Positions 9,412 through 62,167 of a DNA stretch of 64,000 bases are shown here, one piece after another (positions within the stretch are counted from its first letter, which is position 1; each line of letters opens with the position of its first letter). The stretch comes from Thermoplasmata archaeon. GTDB lineage: Archaea; Thermoplasmatota; Thermoplasmata; Methanomassiliicoccales; Methanomethylophilaceae. Position numbers and translations under genes: made by a program. A model generated the notes under the pieces. The model saw nothing but the letters and a program-made list of their open reading frames with translations, had not been told where the DNA came from and ran no database searches. The stretch lies in assembly GCA_015063135.1 (NCBI GenBank), contig SUTA01000003.1:1-64000 (forward strand). Direction: 5' to 3'.

Positions 9412-12363
9412 TCACTCCATCGGCGTGATGCCGATGGTGATGTCCTTGCCGGTGACGTCCCAGGTCTTGACCTGCGCGCCCTTCGGCTCGGCGGTGAAGT
9501 TCAGCTGCTTGGCGCGGACTTCGTTGGCGATGTGGTCTTTCCAGTCGCCGAAGAGGCCGATGAGTCTCTCCTCGGCGGCGACGTCGCAGGAGATGTACTG
9601 CTCAACGTTGAGCTTCATGTCCTTGCGCATCTGCTGGATCCTCCTGATGAGCTCCCTGGCGTAGCCCTCGGCCTCGATCTCCGGGGTGACGTTGAAGTCG
9701 ATGAACACGGTGCCCTCGTCGAATGCGACGGGCTCGATGTCCTTCTCGACCGCGGGGATCTCCTCCTTGCCGAGGTACACGACCTTCTTGATGTTGCCCT
9801 GGTCGGCCAGGACGGAGTCGAACCTCTTGACGGCCTTGTTCACGTCAGCATCGTTGCCGCGGACGAAGACCTGCAGGAGGGGCCACCTGAGCTTGGATCC
9901 CATCTTGGCCCTCTCGGCTGCGATGAGGTCCACGATGCCCTTGACGAGGGACATGCTGTGCTCCACATCGTCGTCCATGAGGGACTCGTCTGCCACGGGC
10001 CAGTCCTCCATGTGGATGGTGGGCAGATTTCCCCCCATGTGCTGGTAGACCTCCTCCGCGATGTGCGGGGCGATCGGCGCAATCACCAGGGCGGTCCTCA
10101 TGATGGCATAGTGTAGGGTGAAGTACGAGGCGTTCTTGTCGGCGGCCATGTCGCTGTCCTCGGACCAGGACCTGTCCCTGACCAGGCAGACGTACCATCT
10201 GGAGAGGTCCTCCATTATGTAGTCGTCCAGCGCCCTAGCCAGCTTGTGCAGCTCCCTGGTCTCCAGGTACTCGGTGGCGGTCTTCACGATCTTCTCGGTC
10301 CTGGAGATCATCCAGCGGTCCTCGTCGCGCAGGTACTTCTTCATCTCTTCCATGGAGTGCGCATCGGGGTCGTAGCCGTCTATGAGCATGTAGGTGGATG
10401 CGAAGTTCACGACGTTCCAGTAGGTGTTCAGCACCTTCCTGGCGTTCTTCGGGCCGTCCTTCTGGAAGGCGGTGTCCTCCCAGGGGGCGTTGCTCTTGAT
10501 CAGGTAGTAGCGCAGGGAGTCCGCGCCGACCTGGTCTATGAGCTCAAGGGGCTCGATGACGTTGCCGAGGGACTTGGACATCTTCTGGCCCTTGGGGTCC
10601 AGCACCCATCCGTGCATCATGACCTCGTCGTAGGGGGCGCGGTCGAACGAGATGACCCCCGCTCCCAGCTGGGAGTAGAACCATCCGCGGGTCTGGTCGT
10701 GGGCCTCGACGATGAAGTCGCAGGGCCACCATTTGTCGAACTCCTCCTTCCTGTGGGGGTAGCCCAGGGAGGCCCAGGCCGCGACACCGGAGTCGAACCA
10801 GACGTCCAGGACGTCGGGGACCCTGCGCATCTCCTTGCCGCACTCGGGGCATTTGAAAGTGACGTTGTCAATCCAGGGGCGGTGGGTATCCATGCCGTCG
10901 GTGTAGCCGGTGCCCTCCTTGAGCTCCTCGTACTGGCCGACGACCCTCTTGGCGCCGCACTGGCACTCCCAGACCGGCATGGGGATGCCCCAGTACCTCT
11001 GCCTGGAGATGCACCAGTCCCTGGCGCCCTCGACCCAGTTCTTCTCCCTGGATTCGCCGGCCCAGTCGGGGACCCACTTGGCGCGGTCGATCTCGCTCAG
11101 CATCTGGTCCTTGACCTCGGGGACGCTGACGAACCACTGCCTGGTGTTCCTGTAGATGATCGGGGACTTGCACCTCCAGCAGTGTCCGTACCTGTGCTTG
11201 ATCTTGCCCTGGTTGTACAGCCTCCCGTTCTCGTCCAGGTACTTGATGACGTCGTCGGCGACGGTCTTTACCTTCTTGCCCGCCAGGAGCGGGAACTCGT
11301 CGGTGTACCTCCCGCTCTCGGCGACGGGGCAGAATGGCTCGATGCCGTACCTCTTGCCGGTCTCGTAATCGTCGGGACCGTGGCCGGGCGCGGTGTGGAC
11401 CAGGCCGGTGTTGTCGTTCTCGACGTAGTCGGCGGTGACGACCTTGAACGTCCACTCGTTGCGGGGCTGCGCGGCCAGGTCGAAGACCGGGACGTACTCC
11501 AGGCCCTCCAGCTGCTTGCCCTTGCACCTCTCGAGGACCTCGAAGCTGTCGTATCCGCCCTTCTGCATGACGAACTCCGCCTGGGATTCCAGGACGATGA
11601 GGGTCTCCTCTCCGGAGGCGCCCTTCATCCTGACCTTGGCGTAATCGAAATCGGGGTGGACCGCGACCGCGGCGTTGGCGGCTAGGGTCCACGGCGTGGT
11701 GGTCCAGATGAGCAGGTTGGCGGACCCATCCTTGAGCGGCATCCTGACCATGATCGAGGGGTCGGTCTCGTCCCAGTACTCGATCTCGGCCTCTGCGAGG
11801 GCGGTCTCGCACCTGGGGCACCAGGTGACCACCCTGCTGGCGTCCTTGAGCAGGCCCTTCTCGTAGGCGCGCTGCAGGGTCCACCATGCGGACTCGATGT
11901 AGTCCAGCTTGATGGTCTGATAGGGGTTGTCCCAATCCATCCAGACGCCCAGCTGCTTGAACTGTTCCGTCATGTCGGCGTGGAGGCCCAGTGCGAACTC
12001 CTTGCAGGTGGTGACGAACTTGTCGATCCCCATCTCCTCGATGTCCTTCTTGGTGTGGACCCCGACGTTCTTCTCGACCTTGACCTCGATGGGCAGCCCG
12101 TGCATGTCGAACCCGGGCTGGTCGCGGACGTTGTAGCCGTTCATCCTCCAGTACCTGATGAGGATGTCCTTGACGGTCTTGTTCATGGCGGTGCCCAGGT
12201 GGATCGCGCCGGTGGTGTACGGCGGCCCGTCGACGAAGTAGAACTTCTCTCCGTCCTTCCTGGACTCCTTGGTCTTCCTATAAGCGTCTGTGGACCTCCA
12301 GAACTCCTGGACGTCCTTCTCGATGCCTTTGGCATCGTAGTTCGCGCGGATTGGCTTTATCAT
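9412..12363 (-). CDS. ileS: Isoleucyl-tRNA synthetase
   Basis: DGPPYTTGAIHLGTAMNK (HIGH-like), KMSKSLGN, class I IleRS architecture. Confidence 0.97.
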   Translation of the reverse strand: MIKPIRANYDAKGIEKDVQEFWRSTDAYRKTKESRKDGEKFYFVDGPPYTTGAIHLGTAMNKTVKDILIRYWRMNGYNVRDQPGFDMHGLPIEVKVEKNVGVHTKKDIEEMGIDKFVTTCKEFALGLHADMTEQFKQLGVWMDWDNPYQTIKLDYIESAWWTLQRAYEKGLLKDASRVVTWCPRCETALAEAEIEYWDETDPSIMVRMPLKDGSANLLIWTTTPWTLAANAAVAVHPDFDYAKVRMKGASGEETLIVLESQAEFVMQKGGYDSFEVLERCKGKQLEGLEYVPVFDLAAQPRNEWTFKVVTADYVENDNTGLVHTAPGHGPDDYETGKRYGIEPFCPVAESGRYTDEFPLLAGKKVKTVADDVIKYLDENGRLYNQGKIKHRYGHCWRCKSPIIYRNTRQWFVSVPEVKDQMLSEIDRAKWVPDWAGESREKNWVEGARDWCISRQRYWGIPMPVWECQCGAKRVVGQYEELKEGTGYTDGMDTHRPWIDNVTFKCPECGKEMRRVPDVLDVWFDSGVAAWASLGYPHRKEEFDKWWPCDFIVEAHDQTRGWFYSQLGAGVISFDRAPYDEVMMHGWVLDPKGQKMSKSLGNVIEPLELIDQVGADSLRYYLIKSNAPWEDTAFQKDGPKNARKVLNTYWNVVNFASTYMLIDGYDPDAHSMEEMKKYLRDEDRWMISRTEKIVKTATEYLETRELHKLARALDDYIMEDLSRWYVCLVRDRSWSEDSDMAADKNASYFTLHYAIMRTALVIAPIAPHIAEEVYQHMGGNLPTIHMEDWPVADESLMDDDVEHSMSLVKGIVDLIAAERAKMGSKLRWPLLQVFVRGNDADVNKAVKRFDSVLADQGNIKKVVYLGKEEIPAVEKDIEPVAFDEGTVFIDFNVTPEIEAEGYARELIRRIQQMRKDMKLNVEQYISCDVAAEERLIGLFGDWKDHIANEVRAKQLNFTAEPKGAQVKTWDVTGKDITIGITPME

Positions 12364-24078: not shown

Positions 24079-24372
24079 TCACGAAATCCTGTTCACGATT
24101 TCCTGGTACATGTCCTTGCCCAGGCCGGTGATTGTATAGTGGTGGAGGAGGTGTCCCTGCCAGAACTTGCCCTCCTCGTCGATCACAGTCTCTCCCTCGG
24201 AGAGGAATCCGGCGGAAACGAGCTCGACGATATCGTATGTGATCATCCCTCTGCCGTAATCGCTCTCGAGGTTATACTCCTTCTGAAGCACGGGAACGAT
24301 GTCCTGAAGCCACCAGTCCTTCTCGTTGAAAAGCTCCAGCATGCGGAACTTTATGGGCTGTCCCTCCATCAT
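24079..24372 (-). CDS. Small winged-helix-like protein
   Basis: KFRMLELFNEKDWWLQDIVPVLQKEY...; start overlaps the CGA end of the upstream transporter (CGATG). Confidence 0.6.
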   Translation of the reverse strand: MMEGQPIKFRMLELFNEKDWWLQDIVPVLQKEYNLESDYGRGMITYDIVELVSAGFLSEGETVIDEEGKFWQGHLLHHYTITGLGKDMYQEIVNRIS

Positions 24373-25475
24373 CGCTGATCACCGTCCTTCTGATCTCTCA
24401 GGGAGACGAGTCCTTCTGTATCCTCTGTTGCAAGCAGGAAGCTACCAATCAGACAGATGATGAGTCCGAGGATGGTTGATCCGACAATGATGAGCATACT
24501 GTCATCATCGTATCCCAGAGCACCCGCGGGTCCGCAGAATATGCACAGGAAGATGACGGCGCAAGCGGCATACAGACTTCCTACCGCCTGTCCACGGGCG
24601 ACTCCAAGGAGCGGGAACGACTTGTACCAGGTGACGTAGCACCAGGCGAAGGAGAGTCCCAGCAGGATGAAGACGAAGAATGTGGCGGGGTCGAGGATCT
24701 GTCCGATGGTGCTGAAGATCGGGATGCCAGTGCAGGCGATGATGATCATGACGATGATCCAGAAGATGGCCTCGAAGCAGAACCTGAGGTGAAGTCCGAT
24801 GTCGGGTTCGCAGAAGTCCAGAGCCTTTCCGGCGCAGACTCCCTCGAATCCCCATCCGACCGCAGCCATGATCCCACCGATAATACCGATGGTGGGGTTT
24901 CCGGTTCCGGTGACTCCTCCAGAGATGATGGAACCGGAGTACAGCGTGATGCCTCCCACGAGAAGGACGATAACCGCGAGGTATCCCCTCTTGGAAACCT
25001 TCTGCTTCAGGTACAGAACAGACATGATCGTACCGATGATCGGGTAAAGCAGTCCAGCGATGGCGGCGAATCCTGCACTCAGGTTGAAGGACGCCAGGTA
25101 TGTACCGGAAACGGCACAGGCGCCGCAGATACCGGCCATCATGAAATATTTGCTGGCTCCCTTGACCTGAACCAGCTCCCTCTTGAACTCGGGGAGCTTT
25201 CTGAGCCCGCCGTTCCAGATAAAGAGCACAGCGGCGCAGAAAATGGCATTGAGGCCGGTCAAGAATATACAGACAATGATGTTCATAAGGTCCACATCAA
25301 TGTTGGGCTTATCGACGAGGATGTTCACATACAGGTCGTTGAGGATATCGAGGTTCCAAACGGCATATCCGGGAACGTACCAGATGCCCCAGTAGAGGGC
25401 GCACAGGATACCCATAAGAAGACCGATGCGGATCTTCTTCTTGTGATCCAGTATTTTCATTTCTTCTACGTCCAA
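24372..25475 (-). CDS. EamA/DMT-like multi-TM transporter; ends at CGA (24374..24372), immediately followed by TGA
   Basis: Ten hydrophobic segments; C-terminal SLRDQKDGDQ-CGA-TGA. Confidence 0.7.
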
Positions 25476-25807: not shown

Positions 25808-26449
25808 TCGGCTATCGGAGAAGAGCGTCCTTACGAGTTTGACGATCTCGGCGCCGGATGCAGAGTAGCCGTCCCCGCCGATCTCCTGCACCCATTCGTC
25901 GGTGCAGGGTGCGCCGCCGAAGATCGTGAGGATGTGGAGGCCGCTCTCCCTGATGACGCGGACGATATCCTTCTGCTGGTAGAGGCTGGTCGTCATGAGG
26001 GCCGACCCTCCGACAATCGAGGCGCCGTTGGCCCTGGCCGCCTCGACGAACGCATCTGGGGAGACGTCGCTGCCGAGGTCCACCACCCTGTAGCCGGCGC
26101 CGCGCAGCATGGCGCAGCAGATGTTCTTGCCGATCTCATGTATGTCGCCCTTGACGGATCCCATGATGATGACGCCGTTCAAATCGGCGTCGCCCTTCTC
26201 CATTTTAGGTTCCAGGACTTCGAGGGCGGCATCCATGGCCTTGGCGGCGGCCACGATCTGCGGGAGGAAAATCTTGCCCTCATCGAAGCGGTTGCTGATG
26301 GTCTGCATGCCCTTAGCAAGTCCGAGGTTGACGGCGTCGAAGGGCGGGATGCCGGCATCTACGGCCTTCTGGGCGCTCTCGCGCGCAAGGGCGACGTTCC
26401 CGGTCTCCACCGACGTCTGAAGATTCATCAGGGCCTCGTCTTTGGGCAT
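25808..26449 (-). CDS. Corrinoid (MtxC-like) protein without adjacent methyltransferase; ends at CGA (25810..25808)
   Basis: GDIHEIGKNICCAMLRGAGYRVVDLGSDV; 213 aa with CGA as end, same length as mtbC and mtmC. ORF track overruns to 25712. Confidence 0.85.
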
Positions 26450-37531: not shown

Positions 37532-38242
37532 ATGTCGGCCATTCTCGATAAGAACAAGGAGTACGCGCAGGTCCTGTCGTCCGTCATCGGTCTCAGGTCC
37601 GAGCCCGTCGCGATCAAGCTGGTCAGGGAGGGAGAGGAGTTCCCCGCCGGATACAGCGAGCCCGAGGCGCAGATGAGCCACTGCCAGGCCGTTTTCAGGG
37701 CCAGGCACGGCGAGTGCCTCAAGATGCCCATCGCATGCCACAACTGCAAGGTCGGTACGTCAGCCCTCAACATGACTGCCACCGACGAGAAGGTCGCGTC
37801 CGGCGAGTTCCACGCCGGCATCGGCATGCACGACAGCGCGGCCGCAGCCGGGAAGATGATCTCCGAGAGGATGATCCCGTCCTTCAAGAGCAAGGGCGAG
37901 GTCGTGTGCCCCTTGAAGGACGCGGACTTCGAGCCCGACGTCGTCGCCATCATCGACATTCCCGAGCGCGTCTACTGGGTCGTCCCCCTGTCCACCGCCG
38001 AGGAGGGGGGCAGGGCCGTTTTCAGCACCTCGCCCTTCCAGTGCGCCTGCGAGGACGTGACCGCGGTGCCCATCGTCACCGGCAAGCCCAACGTGTCCCT
38101 CGGGTGCTTCGGGTGCAGGAAGAAGACGGACATGGCCGCCGACGAGCTCGCCTGCGGCATCCCATACGCCCTGATCCCGGGCTTCGTGGAGCACCTCAGG
38201 AAGTACGGAACCGGCGTCATGACCAAGGCGAAGCGCGAGCGA
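37532..38242 (+). CDS. DUF169-family protein; ends at CGA 38240-38242
   Basis: GLRSEPVAIKLVREGEEFP, SHCQAVFRARHGECL, LGCFGCRKKTDM. ORF track overruns to 38371. Confidence 0.78.
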
Positions 38243-43402: not shown

Positions 43403-44401
43403 ATGGAGATGACCATGCAGTACTGCCCCTACTGCGGAGGGGATGTCGAGGGTGGCGAAGGCCTCCACGATGTCTGCAGCAGTTGCGGCAAGAAGCTGTA
43501 CAGGTTCAGATCCGACTTCGAGAGGTTCCCGGAGACCGTCGGGAAGGTCGAGAAATTCTCCCCGGTCATCGCCATGATGAAGGACGACAACCTCCAGCGC
43601 GCACTCGATACCGTCCGCGAGATGATCGAGGCCGACGGCGGCGAGGACCCGGACGAGATACTGCTCCTCGGATGCATCTACATGAGGATGCGCGAGGACG
43701 GCAAGGCGTTCATCGAGTGGAAGAACGCCGTGGAGAAGCTGCAGACCTTCCAGAACATCGACGGCTACGTCTGCATGATGTCCTACATGATCTCCGACCA
43801 CATCTATTACACGGAGACCGAATTCGTCGTCTTCGACTACATAAAGTACATCGACCGCCTCGGAGAGACCATCTACGGCATCATGGGCGAGCCCTGCACT
43901 TATGTCCTATACCTCACGATCAACCGCATCTTCAGGCAGAAGATCGTCTCGGAGGGCATCGAGGTCATCGATTCAGATCTCACCGAGGTCCTGCTGAGGC
44001 TGTTCTGCAGGATCATCGAGTACAACCGCAACTGCCGCAATGTCGACTACCTCGTCAGCTCCATGCTCAATTTCCTCGGCTACGAGGAGGAGACCTATGT
44101 CGAGGACGAGAACCTCGTCTGCCATGCCCTGGACCTTTTCCGCAACTACGTCAACGCGTACCTGGAAGAGCTCTCCGAGGACGATGTGGACAAGATACGC
44201 TACCACTGGAACGACGAGAGCTCAAAGAAGCTCGTGGCGCTGTTCGAGGATATGCTCGAGAAGGCATCGTCCTCTGGTGTCGGAGCGCTCGGCCTCCTGA
44301 AATCCAAGAAGGAGGGCTTCGATCTCGCAGCTGCCGTCAACTCATATGTGAGGAAGTATCTCCTCATCGAGGACTCGTCGGAAGAGACCGAGCCCGCTTA
44401 A
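43403..44401 (+). CDS. Zinc-ribbon hypothetical protein
   Basis: CPYCGGD...CSSCGKKLYRF, helical remainder; ends TAA. Confidence 0.65.
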   Translation: MEMTMQYCPYCGGDVEGGEGLHDVCSSCGKKLYRFRSDFERFPETVGKVEKFSPVIAMMKDDNLQRALDTVREMIEADGGEDPDEILLLGCIYMRMREDGKAFIEWKNAVEKLQTFQNIDGYVCMMSYMISDHIYYTETEFVVFDYIKYIDRLGETIYGIMGEPCTYVLYLTINRIFRQKIVSEGIEVIDSDLTEVLLRLFCRIIEYNRNCRNVDYLVSSMLNFLGYEEETYVEDENLVCHALDLFRNYVNAYLEELSEDDVDKIRYHWNDESSKKLVALFEDMLEKASSSGVGALGLLKSKKEGFDLAAAVNSYVRKYLLIEDSSEETEPA

Positions 44402-45150: not shown

Positions 45151-46140
45151 TCGGAGATAGTCGCCCAGGCGGGCGGCCTCGCGCGTGGACAGGTCCACAA
45201 TCTGGTCGCGCGGTGTCAGGCAGTTCCAGAGCATCTCCGATTCCGGCATGTAGACCTTCGATGCGCGTTTCTCGATGTCGGGGCGGTTGGCATAGCAGTA
45301 GACACAATCGTGCATGCAGGTATCGTATTCACCGATGTCTATGCTGCGTATGCACCCGCAGCGTTCCCTCATGGGGCTGGAAGAAACTTCATAGGGGATG
45401 TTGAGGGACCGATAGGTAGTGGCGTCCATGCAGGGCCTGTTGATGACTCCATACTCTGAGAGGTCCTCTTTGGCGCAGCAGCTCGTGACGGTCATGCCGT
45501 ACTCGTCCGCCGTGCGGGCGGCCATCCTCGCGAAGGCCGCCTTTTCTTCCCTGGTTATGGCTCTGATGGTGCCCTCCTCGGCGACTCTGGACAGCTTGCT
45601 GTAGAAGTCCACGAAGCTTATGATGCACCTGTCGGTCCATTGGGACGCCTCCCCGCACATCATCTCGAACTTCCGCCTGTGGTAGTCGAGGCCGATGCGT
45701 CCGTTGAGGATGACCGGGTCGTACCTCCAGGTCATCCTGTCCCTCCCTATCCTGTCAGCAATGCGGATGCAACAGTCGTTTATGTCCGCCTTGAAGGGGA
45801 CGCCAGGTTCAAGATCCTTGCTGTAAGGGGTGAGTGTGACCTGGAATGTGTAGATGTGCCCCATCGACCCGATCTCCCTCAAGTGCGGCTCCAGCGGCAT
45901 CGGGTTCTTCGTGATGAATGCGATGCAGTCGACGTTCCTGCGGGACAGGTCCACCCTGTAGACGATGTTCTTCGCCACAGGGTTCCTCACCAGCACATAG
46001 CCCGCCCTGAGACGGTTCATCAGCCATTCCGAATGGAACGCGGGGATATCTGTGCGGCGGCTGGCGGAGATTATCACGATGCTCCCAAGGCTCTCGGCGG
46101 ACATAGAATTATCCCCCTCCGGCCAGCAGGCATCAAGCAT
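45151..46140 (-). CDS. DUF1848-family protein; ends at CGA (45153..45151)
   Basis: IISASRRTDIPAFHSEWLMNRL, CGCIRSIDIGEYDTCMHDCVYCYAN. Confidence 0.8.
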
Positions 46141-46173: not shown

Positions 46174-46650
46174 GTGCGCGGACCCAGGATATACTCGTAC
46201 CTGACGCTGATTGGGAGGATCAGCATCACGGAGGACGGAGAGGGGAGGATAACGGGCGTCTACCTCCCCTGCATGAACCTGCTTCCGATGGAAGAGGAGG
46301 AGACGCCGGCCATAGCGGATGCTGCAGACCAGATCGAGGGCTACCTGTCGGGTGCCATCAGGGATTTCGACGTCGAGACCCTGGTAGAAGGCACCGAGTT
46401 CCGCAAGGACGTCCTGTCGGCCATCTCCCGCATCCCGTACGGGGAGACGCGCACATACTCGCAGGTCGCCGACGAGTCGGGTCATCCGGGCGCGTCCCGC
46501 GCCGTCGGCACCGTCTGCGCGGAGAATCCGCTGCCGATCATAATCCCCTGCCACAGGGTCGTGCCCTCCTCCGGGGGCCTGGGAGCCTACAGCGGCGGCA
46601 GGGCCCTGAAGCGTACCCTTCTAGCTCACGAGGCCGAATCCGATGATCGA
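46174..46650 (+). CDS. ogt: Methylated-DNA-protein cysteine methyltransferase; ends at CGA 46648-46650
   Basis: SRIPYGETRTYSQVA, NPLPIIIPCHRVVPSSGGLGAYSGG; ORF track overruns into alkD. Confidence 0.9.
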
Positions 46651-47869: not shown

Positions 47870-48955
47870 TCGCAGCCTCTTGGAGCCGAGCCTGTAAGCT
47901 ATGCTGCAGTTGCCCTCGGCAGACACCATGCAGGGACCCATGGGGTTCATCGGCTTGCAAGCCTTCCCGAACATGGGGCATTCCTCTGATTTTATGAGCC
48001 CCCTGAGCACGTCGCCGCACCTGCAGCCCTTCGCCTCGGCATCGACCTCAGGGGTGTTCCTGAGGATGTCCTCGTGGACCTTCGTCGCATCGTGGTCAGC
48101 GAATCTCGGCTTGAGCGCCAGGGCGCTCTTGGGGATGAGGGGGAAGCCTCTCCAGTGGCGGTCCACCGGGTCGTAGGTCTCCTCCATGAGCTTCATGGCC
48201 ACGGGGTTGCCCTCGGGCCTCACCAGGCGGGAGTACTCGTTCTCGACTTCGTGGCGGCCCTCCTTCAGCTGCTTGCACAGCATGTAGACGGCCATGAGCA
48301 GGTCCAGGGGCTCGAATCCGGCGATGACCTGGGGGACGGGCCTGATCTTCCCGAACTCCTCGAACATCTTGGTCCCGGTGATGACGGCCACGTGGCCAGG
48401 CTGTATGATCCCGTCGATCCTGTTCTCGCCCAGGCTGAAGATTGTGTCCAGGATGGGAGGGCAGATCCTGTGGCAGCTGTAGACGCTGAAGTTCTCGGGG
48501 CAGTCGTCCCTGTGCAGGGGGACGCATGTGGATGGGGCGGTGGTCTCGAACCCCACGCCGACGAACACCAGGGGCTTGTCGGGCTGCTGCCTCGCCATGG
48601 AGACCGCGTCGTCGATGGAGTAGACGACCCTGACGTCGGCGCCGTCGGTCTTGGCCGAGAAGAGGGAACCTATGGTGGTGGGGACCCTCATCATGTCGCC
48701 GAAGGCGGTCACGGTCACGCCGTTCCTCGCGAGGGTGATGGCATCGGCCACCTCGTGGCTGGTCGTGACGCACACGGGGCATCCGGGCCCCTGGGCGATC
48801 TGCACGCCCACGTCGTTGAGCATCTCCTCCAGCCCGAACCTCACGATGGTGTCCTGGTGCGTTCCGCAGATGTGCATGAACTTGTAGTCCACATCCATCG
48901 CCCTGATGCCGTCCAGGATCTTCCTGGCAGTCTCCTCGTCCCTGTATTTGAACAT
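47870..48955 (-). CDS. hypD: Hydrogenase maturation protein HypD; ends at CGA (47872..47870)
   Basis: FMHICGTHQDTI, GPGCPVCVT, C-terminal CRCGDVLRGLIKSEECPMFGKACKPMNPMGPCMVSAEGNCSI. Confidence 0.95.
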
Positions 48956-49335
48956 CGCTGACTCTCCTCGATGTCTATGTATTTGACCGTGCACGACTGC
49001 CCCTTCACCACGGTCACATGGCCGCCGCACTCGGGGCATGCCAGGACGGGTATCGAATGGGATTCGAAATCGGGGTCCTTCAGTATCTTCGCCGGTCCCT
49101 CGAAGCCGCACCCGTCGCAGCGGAGCTCGATGGGCTCGTGCTCCACTATGAACTCGGAGCCCTCGAGGATGGTACCGCGGGTGACGATCTCGTACGCGAA
49201 GCGCATCTGCTCCTCGCCGAGGTTGGTCAGGTCTCCGATGACGGCGGTCACGCTGTTGACCTTGGTGACGTCGTACTTCTCGAGCTCGAGGAGGACGCCC
49301 CTGACCAGGTTGGACACGACGGATACTTCGTGCAT
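48955..49335 (-). CDS. hypA: Hydrogenase nickel incorporation protein HypA; ends at CGA (48957..48955) overlapping hypD ATG
   Basis: MHEVSVVSNLV, RCDGCGFEG, CPECGGH. Confidence 0.93.
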
Positions 49336-49376: not shown

Positions 49377-50045
49377 TCGCCGCTCCCCGTGCTCCTCGGA
49401 GAAATGCCTGCAGAACCGGGATACCTTGCACTTCTCGCACTTCATGTGATTGGGCAGGCAGGTGACCTGGCCGTGCCTGACGAGGTACCTGTTGATGTCG
49501 GACCATCTCTCCTCGGGGGTGATGTCCATGAGGGCGAACTCGGTCTCCGTGGGGTCCTTGGTATCCACCAGCCCCATGAGGTTGGAGATCCTGTGGACGT
49601 GGGTGTCCACGCACACCGACGGTATCCCCATGGCGTAGGAGCGGACGCATGCGGCGGTCTTCCTGCCCACCATCGGGAGCTTCATCATCTCGTCGGTGTC
49701 GCTGGGGACCTCGCCCCCGTACTCGTCCCTGAGCATGATGCAGCACTCCACTATCGCCTTCGCCTTCTGCTTGGGGAACCCGGCCGGCCTGACCAGCTCC
49801 GCCACTTCGTCCACGTCAGCGGCGGCGATGGCATCGACGGAATCGTACTTGCGGAACAGGTTGTCCGATGCCTTGCGGGTGTTGTCGTCCCTGGTGCGCT
49901 GCGAGAGTATCGTGGCGATGAGGACGTGGAAAGGGTCCGGGGGCCACTCGGGGTTCAGGCCCTCCGAGTTCCTGCCCGGGAAGCATCCGTGGAAGTACTC
50001 GCCGGCGAGAATGTCGAGTATCGTGCAAATCTCTTCTGAAGCCAT
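49377..50045 (-). CDS. nth: Endonuclease III-like DNA glycosylase; ends at CGA (49379..49377)
   Basis: LPMVGRKTAACV, CVDTHVHRI, C-terminal CLPNHMKCEKCKVSRFC Fe-S motif. Confidence 0.93.
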
Positions 50046-51370: not shown

Positions 51371-52225
51371 ATGCGCGGAGCCATGGTGGTCAATGGATTC
51401 CTCGCCGGCGGGAAGTACGACGAGCCGGCGGCAATGATGTCCGCCGCGGCCAGGGGGATGGGCATAGGGCTCACCGTCCTGCGCAACTGCGACCTGTGCC
51501 GCCCCATCGGGGAGTCCCCGCTGGAGGATGCGGACTTCGTGGTGTTCTGGGATAAGGACGTGACCCTCGCCATGTCGCTGGAGGCGGCGGGCCTGAGGCT
51601 GTTCAATCCAGCCCAGTGCATCATGGACTGCGATGACAAGGCCAGGACACATCTGGAGCTGGCGAGGGCGGGGGTCCCCAGCCTTAGGACCATCGCCTGC
51701 CCCAAGACGTTCGAGGGCGTCGGCTACACCGACAGGGGCTTCCTGGGGGAGGCCGCCAGCACCCTCGGGTTCCCGATGGTGGTGAAGGATTGCTTCGGCT
51801 CCTTCGGCCAGCAGGTCCACCTTGTTCGCGACATGGCGGAGCTTGAGGCGCTGGTCGCCGGCGACCGCCCGATGATCATGCAGGAGTACGTCGAATGCGG
51901 AGGCGAGGACCTCAGGATAGAGGTGGTGGGCGGCGAGGCGGTAGCGGCCGTGCGCAGGAAGGCGAAGCCCGGGGAGTTCCGCGCCAACGCGACCCTCGGG
52001 GGGACCATGCACCCGCATGAGCCCACCCGCGAGGAATCGGAGCTCGCAGCGGCCGCGGCGGAGGCCCTGGAGGCGGACTTCTGCGGAGTGGACATCCTCA
52101 GCGGGCCGGACGGGCCGGTCGTCATAGAGGTCAACTCCAACGCCCATATGAGGAACATCACCGAATGCACGGGCATCGATATCGCCTCAGCCATAATGGC
52201 CCACATCCGCTACACGGTGGGTCGA
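51371..52225 (+). CDS. ATP-grasp (RimK-like) ligase; ends at CGA 52223-52225
   Basis: MVVKDCFGSFGQQVHLV, MQEYVECGGEDLRIEVVGG, VIEVNSNAHMRN. Confidence 0.85.
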
Positions 52226-52226
52226 C

Positions 52227-53021
52227 ATGGAGTGCTGGATCCTGTACGATGCGCCAGACCTGGAGAAGAACAGGTTCTTCGCCGAGAGGCTCAGGGACTC
52301 CGGCAACTCCATGGGGCTCAGATGCGAGATAGTCGCCGCGGGAAGCGCCGATCCCGGGGACGCGCCAGACGTGGTGGTCTCCCGCAGCAGGGACCATCGC
52401 CTCGTAAGCGAGATCGAGGATTGCGGCGCCACGGTGTACAACAGGTCGTCGGTCACGAGGATATGCTGCGACAAGGCGGAGACCCTCCGCTTCGCCGGCA
52501 GCCTCGGCGTCCCGGTACTGCCCTACAGCCTCGCCGCGGACGAGCTCCCTCCGGGGCCCCCGTGGGTGGTCAAGTCGAGGATGGGGCACGGCGGCTCCGA
52601 GGTGTTCGAGGCCTGTTCCGGGGACGAGGTCTCGGAGCTCTTCGATGCAAATGCCGACCGCCTGCCGATGGTGCAGCAGATGGCGCCGGTCCGCGGGAGG
52701 GACATGAGGTGCTACGTCCTAGGCGGAAGGATCATCGCATCTGTGATGCGCTCTAGCGACAGGGACTTCAGGGCCAACTTCAGCCTCGGCGGGAGAGCGG
52801 AGCTATGCGAGTCCCCGGACGCGGCTGTCAGGATAATCAGGAAGGTCGTCCCCGAGCTGATGCCCGACTTCGTGGGCTTCGATTTCCTGTTCGGGGAGGA
52901 TGGGGATGTCTATCTCAACGAGATCGAGGACCCGGTCGGGACCCGCATGCTCTACGAGCTCACGGATCTCGACGCGGCATCCCTCTATATGCGGTACGTC
53001 GCCGCCCGTTCGGGCCTGCGA
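52227..53021 (+). CDS. ATP-grasp (RimK-like) ligase; ends at CGA 53019-53021
   Basis: VVKSRMGHGGSEVFEA, VRGRDMRCYVLGG, YLNEIEDPVGTRML. Confidence 0.85.
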
Positions 53022-60641: not shown

Positions 60642-61583
60642 TTATGGGAGGAGGGACCGCTGCTGCCTGAAGTCGTTGAGGGGCCCGTTGATCTTGCCAG
60701 GCAGCTCGTGGATGACGTAGTCGGGGGACACCGTCTCGATGATCCTCCTGCATGACGGATCGGTGAACGCCCGGTGCTGGTCTATTGCGGACACGTGCTT
60801 GTAGGAGCCCCAATAGAAGTCTACCGGCGCCGTGTCACCCATGTCCACCTCCTCGAACGTCTCCCTGTATTCCCCGGACGCGCTGAAGTGGAAGTGCACC
60901 GCGGACAGCCTGGACAGGAGGTCCTCGTCGTATCCCGAGACTATCTCCATGACTCCCTCGATGCCGTCCTGCTCGGTGTATACGCGGGGGATGGTGCTCA
61001 TGAGGTGGCCGGTGTCCAGGCAGATGCCCCAGTTGTCGAACTCGATCAGGTCCTGGACCAGGCGGAACCCGGCGTTGTCGGTGAGCCTCATGCCGGGCCA
61101 CCAGAGGTTCTCGAAGACGATCTTGAACGGGGGCTCCCCTCCGGGGAAGCGCTCTGCGACCTGGTTCATCATGTCGCAGAACTGCTCGATGACGTAGGCA
61201 TCCTCTCTGCTGGCCCCGTGCTTCCTGACGCACGGGAGGTCGGCGTTGCAGGCATGCATCACGCCGTGGCCGGGGCGGAGGGGCTCCGCCATCCTGATGC
61301 TGCGGGCGACGGAATCCAGGAGCTCCTCGCGGGACTTTCCGTACATGAGGAATAGCGCGGTCTTGTCATCGATGTCGTAGGGCCTGTCCTCCCATGCAGC
61401 GAGCCAATCAGGTGCGTACGGCAGGTGCACTGTCTCGGTGAGCGGTGCGTAGCACTGCGGGACCTCTTCGAACGATGTGAGGAGCTCCAACCCGTCGCAT
61501 CCGATGCCGGCCAAGGTGGCCGCCGCATCCTGGCCGAACAGCTCCAGGTCCTGGTAGACGGAATAGCTCAGCAGATGCTTCAT
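60642..61583 (-). CDS. Xylose-isomerase-like TIM-barrel sugar isomerase/endonuclease
   Basis: ICLDTGHLMST, VHFHFSASGEYRETFEEVDMG. Confidence 0.75.
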   Translation of the reverse strand: MKHLLSYSVYQDLELFGQDAAATLAGIGCDGLELLTSFEEVPQCYAPLTETVHLPYAPDWLAAWEDRPYDIDDKTALFLMYGKSREELLDSVARSIRMAEPLRPGHGVMHACNADLPCVRKHGASREDAYVIEQFCDMMNQVAERFPGGEPPFKIVFENLWWPGMRLTDNAGFRLVQDLIEFDNWGICLDTGHLMSTIPRVYTEQDGIEGVMEIVSGYDEDLLSRLSAVHFHFSASGEYRETFEEVDMGDTAPVDFYWGSYKHVSAIDQHRAFTDPSCRRIIETVSPDYVIHELPGKINGPLNDFRQQRSLLP

Positions 61584-62167
61584 CGGAACAGCGCCAGAGC
61601 AGCGGTGATGGCCGCCTCGATGGCGGAGGCCTTGGTCATTCCGCCGCCGATGATGAGGGCGTCGGATGGGCCGAGACCGTAGTCTTGGCGGATGACCTTG
61701 GCGATCTCGGGCTGATTCTGGTCGATGTTCCAGTCGGGTGGCATCATGAGGATGCCGTCGCGGATGACGATGGTCGTGCACCCCGTGGCCCCCACTTTGA
61801 TCCCGGCATCCCTCTGCTCCATCCCGTTGTTCACCTTGGTGGCGCAGCCGCGGACGATGACCCCCTGCTGGTAGTCGCCGATGACGGAATCGGGCAGGAA
61901 GACATCCACGGGCTCCATGGGCATCTGCTCGAGGAAGTTCTGGCCGGCCTTGGTTATGGTGATGCCAGTCTGCTTGATCGAGATGAAATCCCAGTCCTTC
62001 AGGGTATCGATGATCCTGCGCATGCTGCCTTCTCCGATGCCGACCTCCTCGGCCAGCCTCTTCCTTCCCATGCGCTTCCCGTCGGAGAGCACATAGAGAG
62101 ACCAGTAGACGTTCGCATCGTTGAATCTGAACATTGGGCCGAACTGTGGTTCATCGATGATCTTCAT
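61583..62167 (-). CDS. Winged-helix regulator with DUF4443-like C-terminal domain; ends at CGA (61585..61583)
   Basis: MGRKRLAEEVGIGEGSMRRIIDTLKDWDFISIKQTGITITKAG. Confidence 0.65.

Follow-up and report, generated by a model that had tools for sequence, protein, structure and literature searches.

At the junction between hypA and hypD in a genome of the Methanomethylophilaceae (order Methanomassiliicoccales), the HypA frame runs into a CGA codon, which overlaps the start codon of hypD. In the ordinary code CGA stands for arginine, and the locus raises the question of whether CGA acts as a stop codon here. The window that was analyzed comprises bases 1 to 64,000 of contig C18 of this genome, designated G000 (1.86 Mb in 40 contigs, 87% complete, GC content 60%). 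Judged by the release factor aRF1, its relatives are gut methanogens from ruminants and other animals, chiefly represented by MAGs, and the aRF1 tree placed G000 as sister to all other 19 members of the genus. Orthologues were compared to those of G014, a relative with a complete, closed genome.

The initial annotation had claimed that CGATG replaces the stop/start overlap TGATG at three operon junctions of the window. All three pentamers were present. The HypA-HypD junction (CAG-CGATG-TTC, 48957..48953) was clean, and the HypA frame showed no standard stop for about 38–40 further codons. For the scoring of gene ends we took the first stop-like codon not more than 12 codons away from the expected end and defined d as the offset to the end of the G014 orthologue. 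The CGA of hypA (48955..48957, minus strand; next standard stop 38 codons on) had d=0 relative to the TGA of G014. The coding region in front of it (48958..49335, minus strand, 126 aa) matched PF01155 with 85 bits, covering Pfam HypA in residues 1–121 of 126. The homologous junction of G014 reads ATC GAG GAG GCT GAT TGA TG (then TTC), which is TGATG. An overlap between the upstream stop and the downstream ATG was seen at HypA-HypD only, as CGATG in G000 and as TGATG in G014. The hypD gene itself (coding region 47873..48955, minus strand, 361 aa; PF01924, 435 bits, residues 10–355) also ended with CGA (47870..47872, minus strand), with d=0 relative to a G014 orthologue that is 84% identical and TGA-ended.

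The other two junctions did not hold as evidence. Both EamA-wHTH (24374..24370) and wHTH-isomerase (61585..61581) read CGATGA, with a standard TGA in frame right behind the CGA (EamA: CGA at 24372..24374, TGA at 24371..24369; wHTH: CGA at 61583..61585; all on the minus strand). They are uninformative and carry no weight, because one extra arginine, a TGA stop and an ATGA overlap fit both of them. In 270 kb of G000, NGATG pentamers were also counted at same-strand junctions where NGA is a codon in the frame of the upstream gene and ATG one in that of the downstream gene, a comparison that the initial annotation had set out. CGATG was found 9 times, TGATG 6 times, and GGATG and AGATG 4 times each, a trend that favors the claim. 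When the NGATGA cases were removed, as a standard stop follows there anyway, 8 CGATG, 2 GGATG and 1 AGATG were left. Among the 8 informative CGATG cases, the one between Nth and HypA is probably located downstream of where Nth really ends. Translational coupling by reinitiation at CGATG, as predicted from the overlap, is plausible. The decisive support for CGA as a stop codon comes from genome-wide data and does not depend on the junctions.

Within the window, gene segments defined by codon usage (about 18,600 codons) contained a single CGA, located in a dubious overlap tail, and 23 of the 61 segments reached CGA ahead of any standard stop. On the plus strand, CGA ended a RimK-like ATP-grasp gene (52223..52225; d=0, next standard stop 177 codons on, PF08443 matched to residue 279 of 284), a second ATP-grasp gene (53019..53021; d=0, 26 codons, PF08443), a DUF169 gene (38240..38242; d=0, 43 codons, PF02596) and a methylguanine methyltransferase-like gene (46648..46650; d=1, 84 codons, PF01035). 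On the minus strand, it ended an Mntp-like gene (44378..44380; d=0, 12 codons, PF02659), a DUF1848 gene (45151..45153; d=-1, 65 codons, PF08902), a corrinoid (B12-binding) protein gene (25808..25810; d=-5, 27 codons, PF02310 and PF02607) and a Mur-ligase/FolC-like gene (50021..50023; d=-2, 20 codons, Pfam Mur_ligase). The last of these CGA codons lies inside the start of the endonuclease III-like gene nth (49377-50045), about 20 nt downstream of its ATG. The nth gene itself seems to be CGA-ended too: CGA at 49377..49379 (minus strand) was the first stop-like codon, and a standard stop followed 58 codons past the end of the segment (PF00730).

Since the segmentation by codon usage may be biased, the gene ends were also determined by orthologue comparison. 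The reference set comprised 579 genes of G014 with standard stops (534 TGA, 40 TAA, 5 TAG). These genes were compared by alignment with 413 kb of G000 sequence, which corresponds to about one fifth of its genome. The references were filtered by codon usage; a set of all ORFs was swamped by antisense shadow ORFs, as they occur in GC-rich DNA. Counting the ORFs between stops with varied sets of stop codons was uninformative. Among the 93 G000 genes with aligned C-termini, 45 ended with CGA, 41 with TGA, 6 with TAA and 1 with TAG. The CGA was found at d=0 in 28 of its 45 cases. Of the 40 CGA ends located no more than 3 codons from the expected position, 31 had their next standard stop more than 12 codons away. 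When all sense codons were treated alike and the next standard stop had to be more than 3 codons off, CGA occurred 24 times at the exact expected position, and no other sense codon had a count above 2. Inside genes, CGA was nearly absent: 33,272 aligned codons of G000 contained 2 CGA, at residue 3 and at a penultimate residue, together with 1320 AGG, 547 CGC, 70 AGA, 38 CGT and 29 CGG. The orthologue C-termini, the near-absence inside genes and the change from TGATG in G014 to CGATG in G000 support the core of the initial annotation, that CGA replaces TGA as a stop. A function of CGA as a stop codon throughout the G000 genome is thus strongly supported by the sequence comparisons.

TAG ended only 1 of the 93 genes, and pylS is present in G000 (G000:C18:72418-73092, 8.4 kb past the end of the window; PylS match of 268 bits, above the cut-off). 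TAG may therefore be partly taken by pyrrolysine, and it is probably also decoded as this amino acid in G000.

We also searched for the tRNA that would read CGA. A tRNA-Arg(UCG) was not found among the 43 tRNAs of the 87%-complete G000 assembly, in which the arginine anticodons TCT, CCT, GCG and CCG were present. The same search in G014 revealed a nearly identical set plus TCG. With the tRNA-Arg(UCG) of G014 as DNA query, the only full-length match in G000 was Arg-GCG (76%). By a looser pattern and DNA search, tRNA-Arg(UCG) was present in many relatives, including G001, which uses CGA stops; CGA is therefore ambiguous there. An apparent loss of the tRNA across most of the genus, obtained with a search pattern for the T-arm GGTTCRAATC, was rejected, since the tRNA of G014 has the T-arm GGTTCGATCC. 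In six relatives (G007, G019, G091, G003, G012 and G013), nothing closely homologous to the tRNA-Arg(UCG) of G014 was found, and the CGA in aRF1 described below was kept wherever it was read. G000 also harbors a near-identical pair of tRNA-Pro(UGG) genes 1.7 kb apart (G000:C4:9149-9221 and 10851-10923), the first of which has a mismatched acceptor stem.

The aRF1 protein of G000 is intact, with the motifs NIKS, YRCDSxFF (YxCxxxF) and GGQ. These motifs are unaltered and therefore provide no proven basis for the reading of C instead of U as the first base. Just behind NIKS, G000 carries the unique exchanges K66N and N67H; both sites are invariant in 19 relatives. N67 aligns with S70 of human eRF1, which was proposed as a class-specific decoding site (PMC4698671). 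The aRF1 proteins of G001, a partial user of CGA stops, and of G006 show NIRS in place of NIKS.

The aRF1 gene of the relatives harbors a conserved CGA. Codon 78 (Arg78) was an in-frame CGA in all 19 relatives of the same genus whose aRF1 gene was read, and it was CGC in G000. In 10 genomes of other families, residue 78 was arginine encoded by AGA, AGG, CGC, CGG or CGT. The context of the site is xCT-CGA-CTN, with CT-CGA-CT invariant in the 18 relatives compared codon by codon and alanine or serine as the preceding residue. The frame runs through the CGA as arginine, and there is no programmed +1 frameshift. Elsewhere in the sampled genes CGA is rare. G014 showed 28 CGA among 208,414 segment codons, and by inspection all except that of aRF1 precede a plausible ATG or lie in the last few codons. 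In G001, G009, G007 and G018 together, the aRF1 codon was the sole CGA in 50,060 aligned codons. Family-wide, 48 of 53 CGA-poor loci carried CGA in aRF1, and 36 contained exactly one. The CGA share of arginine codons was 67/1168 in aRF1 and 84/13,450 in neighboring genes, corresponding to an odds ratio of 9.7 for species that are related and not independent, which inflates the p-value of this comparison. Across genera the sites are mostly early (codons 78, 25, 27, 50, 123 or 11), and the aRF1 tree requires several separate origins for them. An early CGA that is kept while its position shifts is what one would expect of a sensor codon and not of a constrained residue.

CGA was also found at gene ends of relatives, in graded amounts. 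At orthologous positions, CGA ended 6 of 30 genes in G001, 6 of 48 in G021, 2 of 41 in G009, 1 of 59 in G007, where TGA follows directly behind, and none of 16 in G018. CGA at orthologous ends was also seen in the independent assemblies L136 (the same genome as G001), L140 and L142 and, in another genus, in L168 and its relatives; an artefact of a single assembly is therefore excluded. In another Methanomethylophilaceae clade (L168, L171, L176, L178, L182 and L183), a gene ends with ILDAVRV-CGA, followed by ATG after about one codon, and the frame stays open for about 330 codons into the gene that follows. L203 shows the same arrangement with an offset of 4 codons, and L194 has TGA there. This site may be either a CGA stop that is conserved beyond the genus or a fusion produced by regulated readthrough.

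Could these patterns arise while CGA remains an ordinary arginine codon? In a GC-rich genome, stop-loss mutations with tolerated C-terminal tails may accumulate, and some of the tails are indeed short. Apart from CGA, the codons that a single change produces from TGA (TGG, TGC, GGA, AGA, etc.) were seen only 0–1 times at the exact position at which CGA was found 24 times, and stop-loss drift is therefore no explanation. Furthermore, the tails would extend up to hundreds of codons and cross downstream genes, and CGA is absent inside genes; we regard this possibility as practically negligible. C-to-U editing of the mRNA would convert CGA into UGA and leave the stop an ordinary one, with an identical genomic pattern. 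No mRNA editing system of this kind is known in archaea; hundreds of sites would need to be edited, and the in-frame CGA in aRF1 of the relatives would have to escape editing or be tuned. Editing is very improbable for these reasons, even if the plastids of peDinoflagellates provide a case in the opposite direction, from UGA to CGA (PMC12574857).

A stop at CGA could also come about without aRF1. CGA may merely be unassigned in G000, so that the ribosome stalls there and is freed by a Pelota-type rescue factor. The search for tRNA-Arg(UCG) in G000, which found none, and a second, Pelota-like gene with eRF1 domains in this genome are in line with this idea. Rescue would, however, be needed for about half of all genes, G001 has the tRNA and yet uses CGA ends, and aRF1 itself is implicated by the CGA conserved in its gene, which makes the unassigned state unlikely. 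It is likewise doubtful that the CGA in aRF1 of the relatives is a relic of codon usage with no regulatory role. Conservation of a single site inside one genus could be due to inheritance, and several further arginine codons of the aRF1 gene are invariant too. Nevertheless, the site is the sole internal CGA in the sampled codons of G014, different genera carry CGA at different, mostly early codons of aRF1, and the codon in front of codon 78 is always xCT although the amino acid varies.

We therefore favor the view that CGA was reassigned from arginine to a fourth stop codon in G000, that aRF1 reads it, and that it serves feedback on the aRF1 gene in the relatives; considering all sequence evidence, we assign a probability of roughly 0.9 to this reading as a whole. 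CGA, formerly an arginine codon, would now close roughly half of all genes of G000, and the single archaeal release factor aRF1 most likely recognizes it besides UGA. In the relatives, aRF1 may already act on CGA inefficiently and in competition with tRNA-Arg(UCG); we infer this activity because CGA is avoided in their genes. CGA would thus have been nearly purged from these genes, save for one in-frame codon in the aRF1 gene, where termination versus insertion of arginine may set the aRF1 level by negative feedback. In some relatives, CGA appears to have become a genuine stop that closes as much as about one fifth of the genes. In G000, the tRNA would then have been lost and the sensor codon changed to CGC, leaving CGA as an unambiguous stop; the pattern is visible in the genomes, and the mechanism is our interpretation of it. 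It is also likely that the eRF1-type factor of the family reads CGA, at the sensor at first and later at gene ends (intermediates with 0%, 2–20% and about 50% CGA ends), and that G000 represents the first cellular (non-organellar) sense-to-stop reassignment.

If this is true, stop codon reading by an eRF1-type factor is not restricted to codons that start with U. The series from a rare sensor codon to an ambiguous codon and to a full stop would make models of codon reassignment directly testable, and the sequence data point to a new genetic code in the making. It is also implied that gene calls in Methanomethylophilaceae gut methanogens are wrong, with proteins fused or overlong. A literature search for CGA as a stop codon in archaea found nothing; few subscription papers were within its reach, and bioRxiv preprints were outside it.

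Sense-to-stop changes were previously known from organelles only (PMC12574857): AGR in vertebrate mitochondria, and UUA/UCA in the plastids of peDinoflagellates, described in 2025 as the first outside mitochondria (PMC12574857). As in G000, the codon is gone from gene interiors and placed at the ends, and earlier annotations had falsely fused genes. The organelles use bacterial-type release factors, whereas in G000 the change concerns CGA in an archaeal cell whose release factor is of the eRF1 type. The Codetta screen identified bacteria in which the arginine codons CGA, CGG and AGG changed their meaning (PMC8629427); rare arginine codons are reassigned there as in G000, although to another amino acid. 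In archaea, it assigned no sense codon to a different amino acid and left 218 codon cases uninferred; since its "?" model also covers stops, a sense-to-stop change would show as uninferred (PMC8629427). Methanomassiliicoccales that decode pyrrolysine show a stop-to-sense change at UAG (PMC4153887). They share the order and the ambiguity of a stop codon with G000, whose genome also has pylS and in which the change is sense-to-stop at CGA. The bacterial prfB gene (RF2) has a conserved early in-frame codon that is read as a stop by its own product and was lost in some lineages (PMC12421855). The aRF1 gene likewise has a conserved early codon that was lost in some lineages and that we take to be read as a stop, which suggests an archaeal counterpart to prfB autoregulation. 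The aRF1 site differs from prfB in that the codon is CGA, the frame is kept without a frameshift and the factor is archaeal; even so, prfB autoregulation looks like its closest functional analogue.
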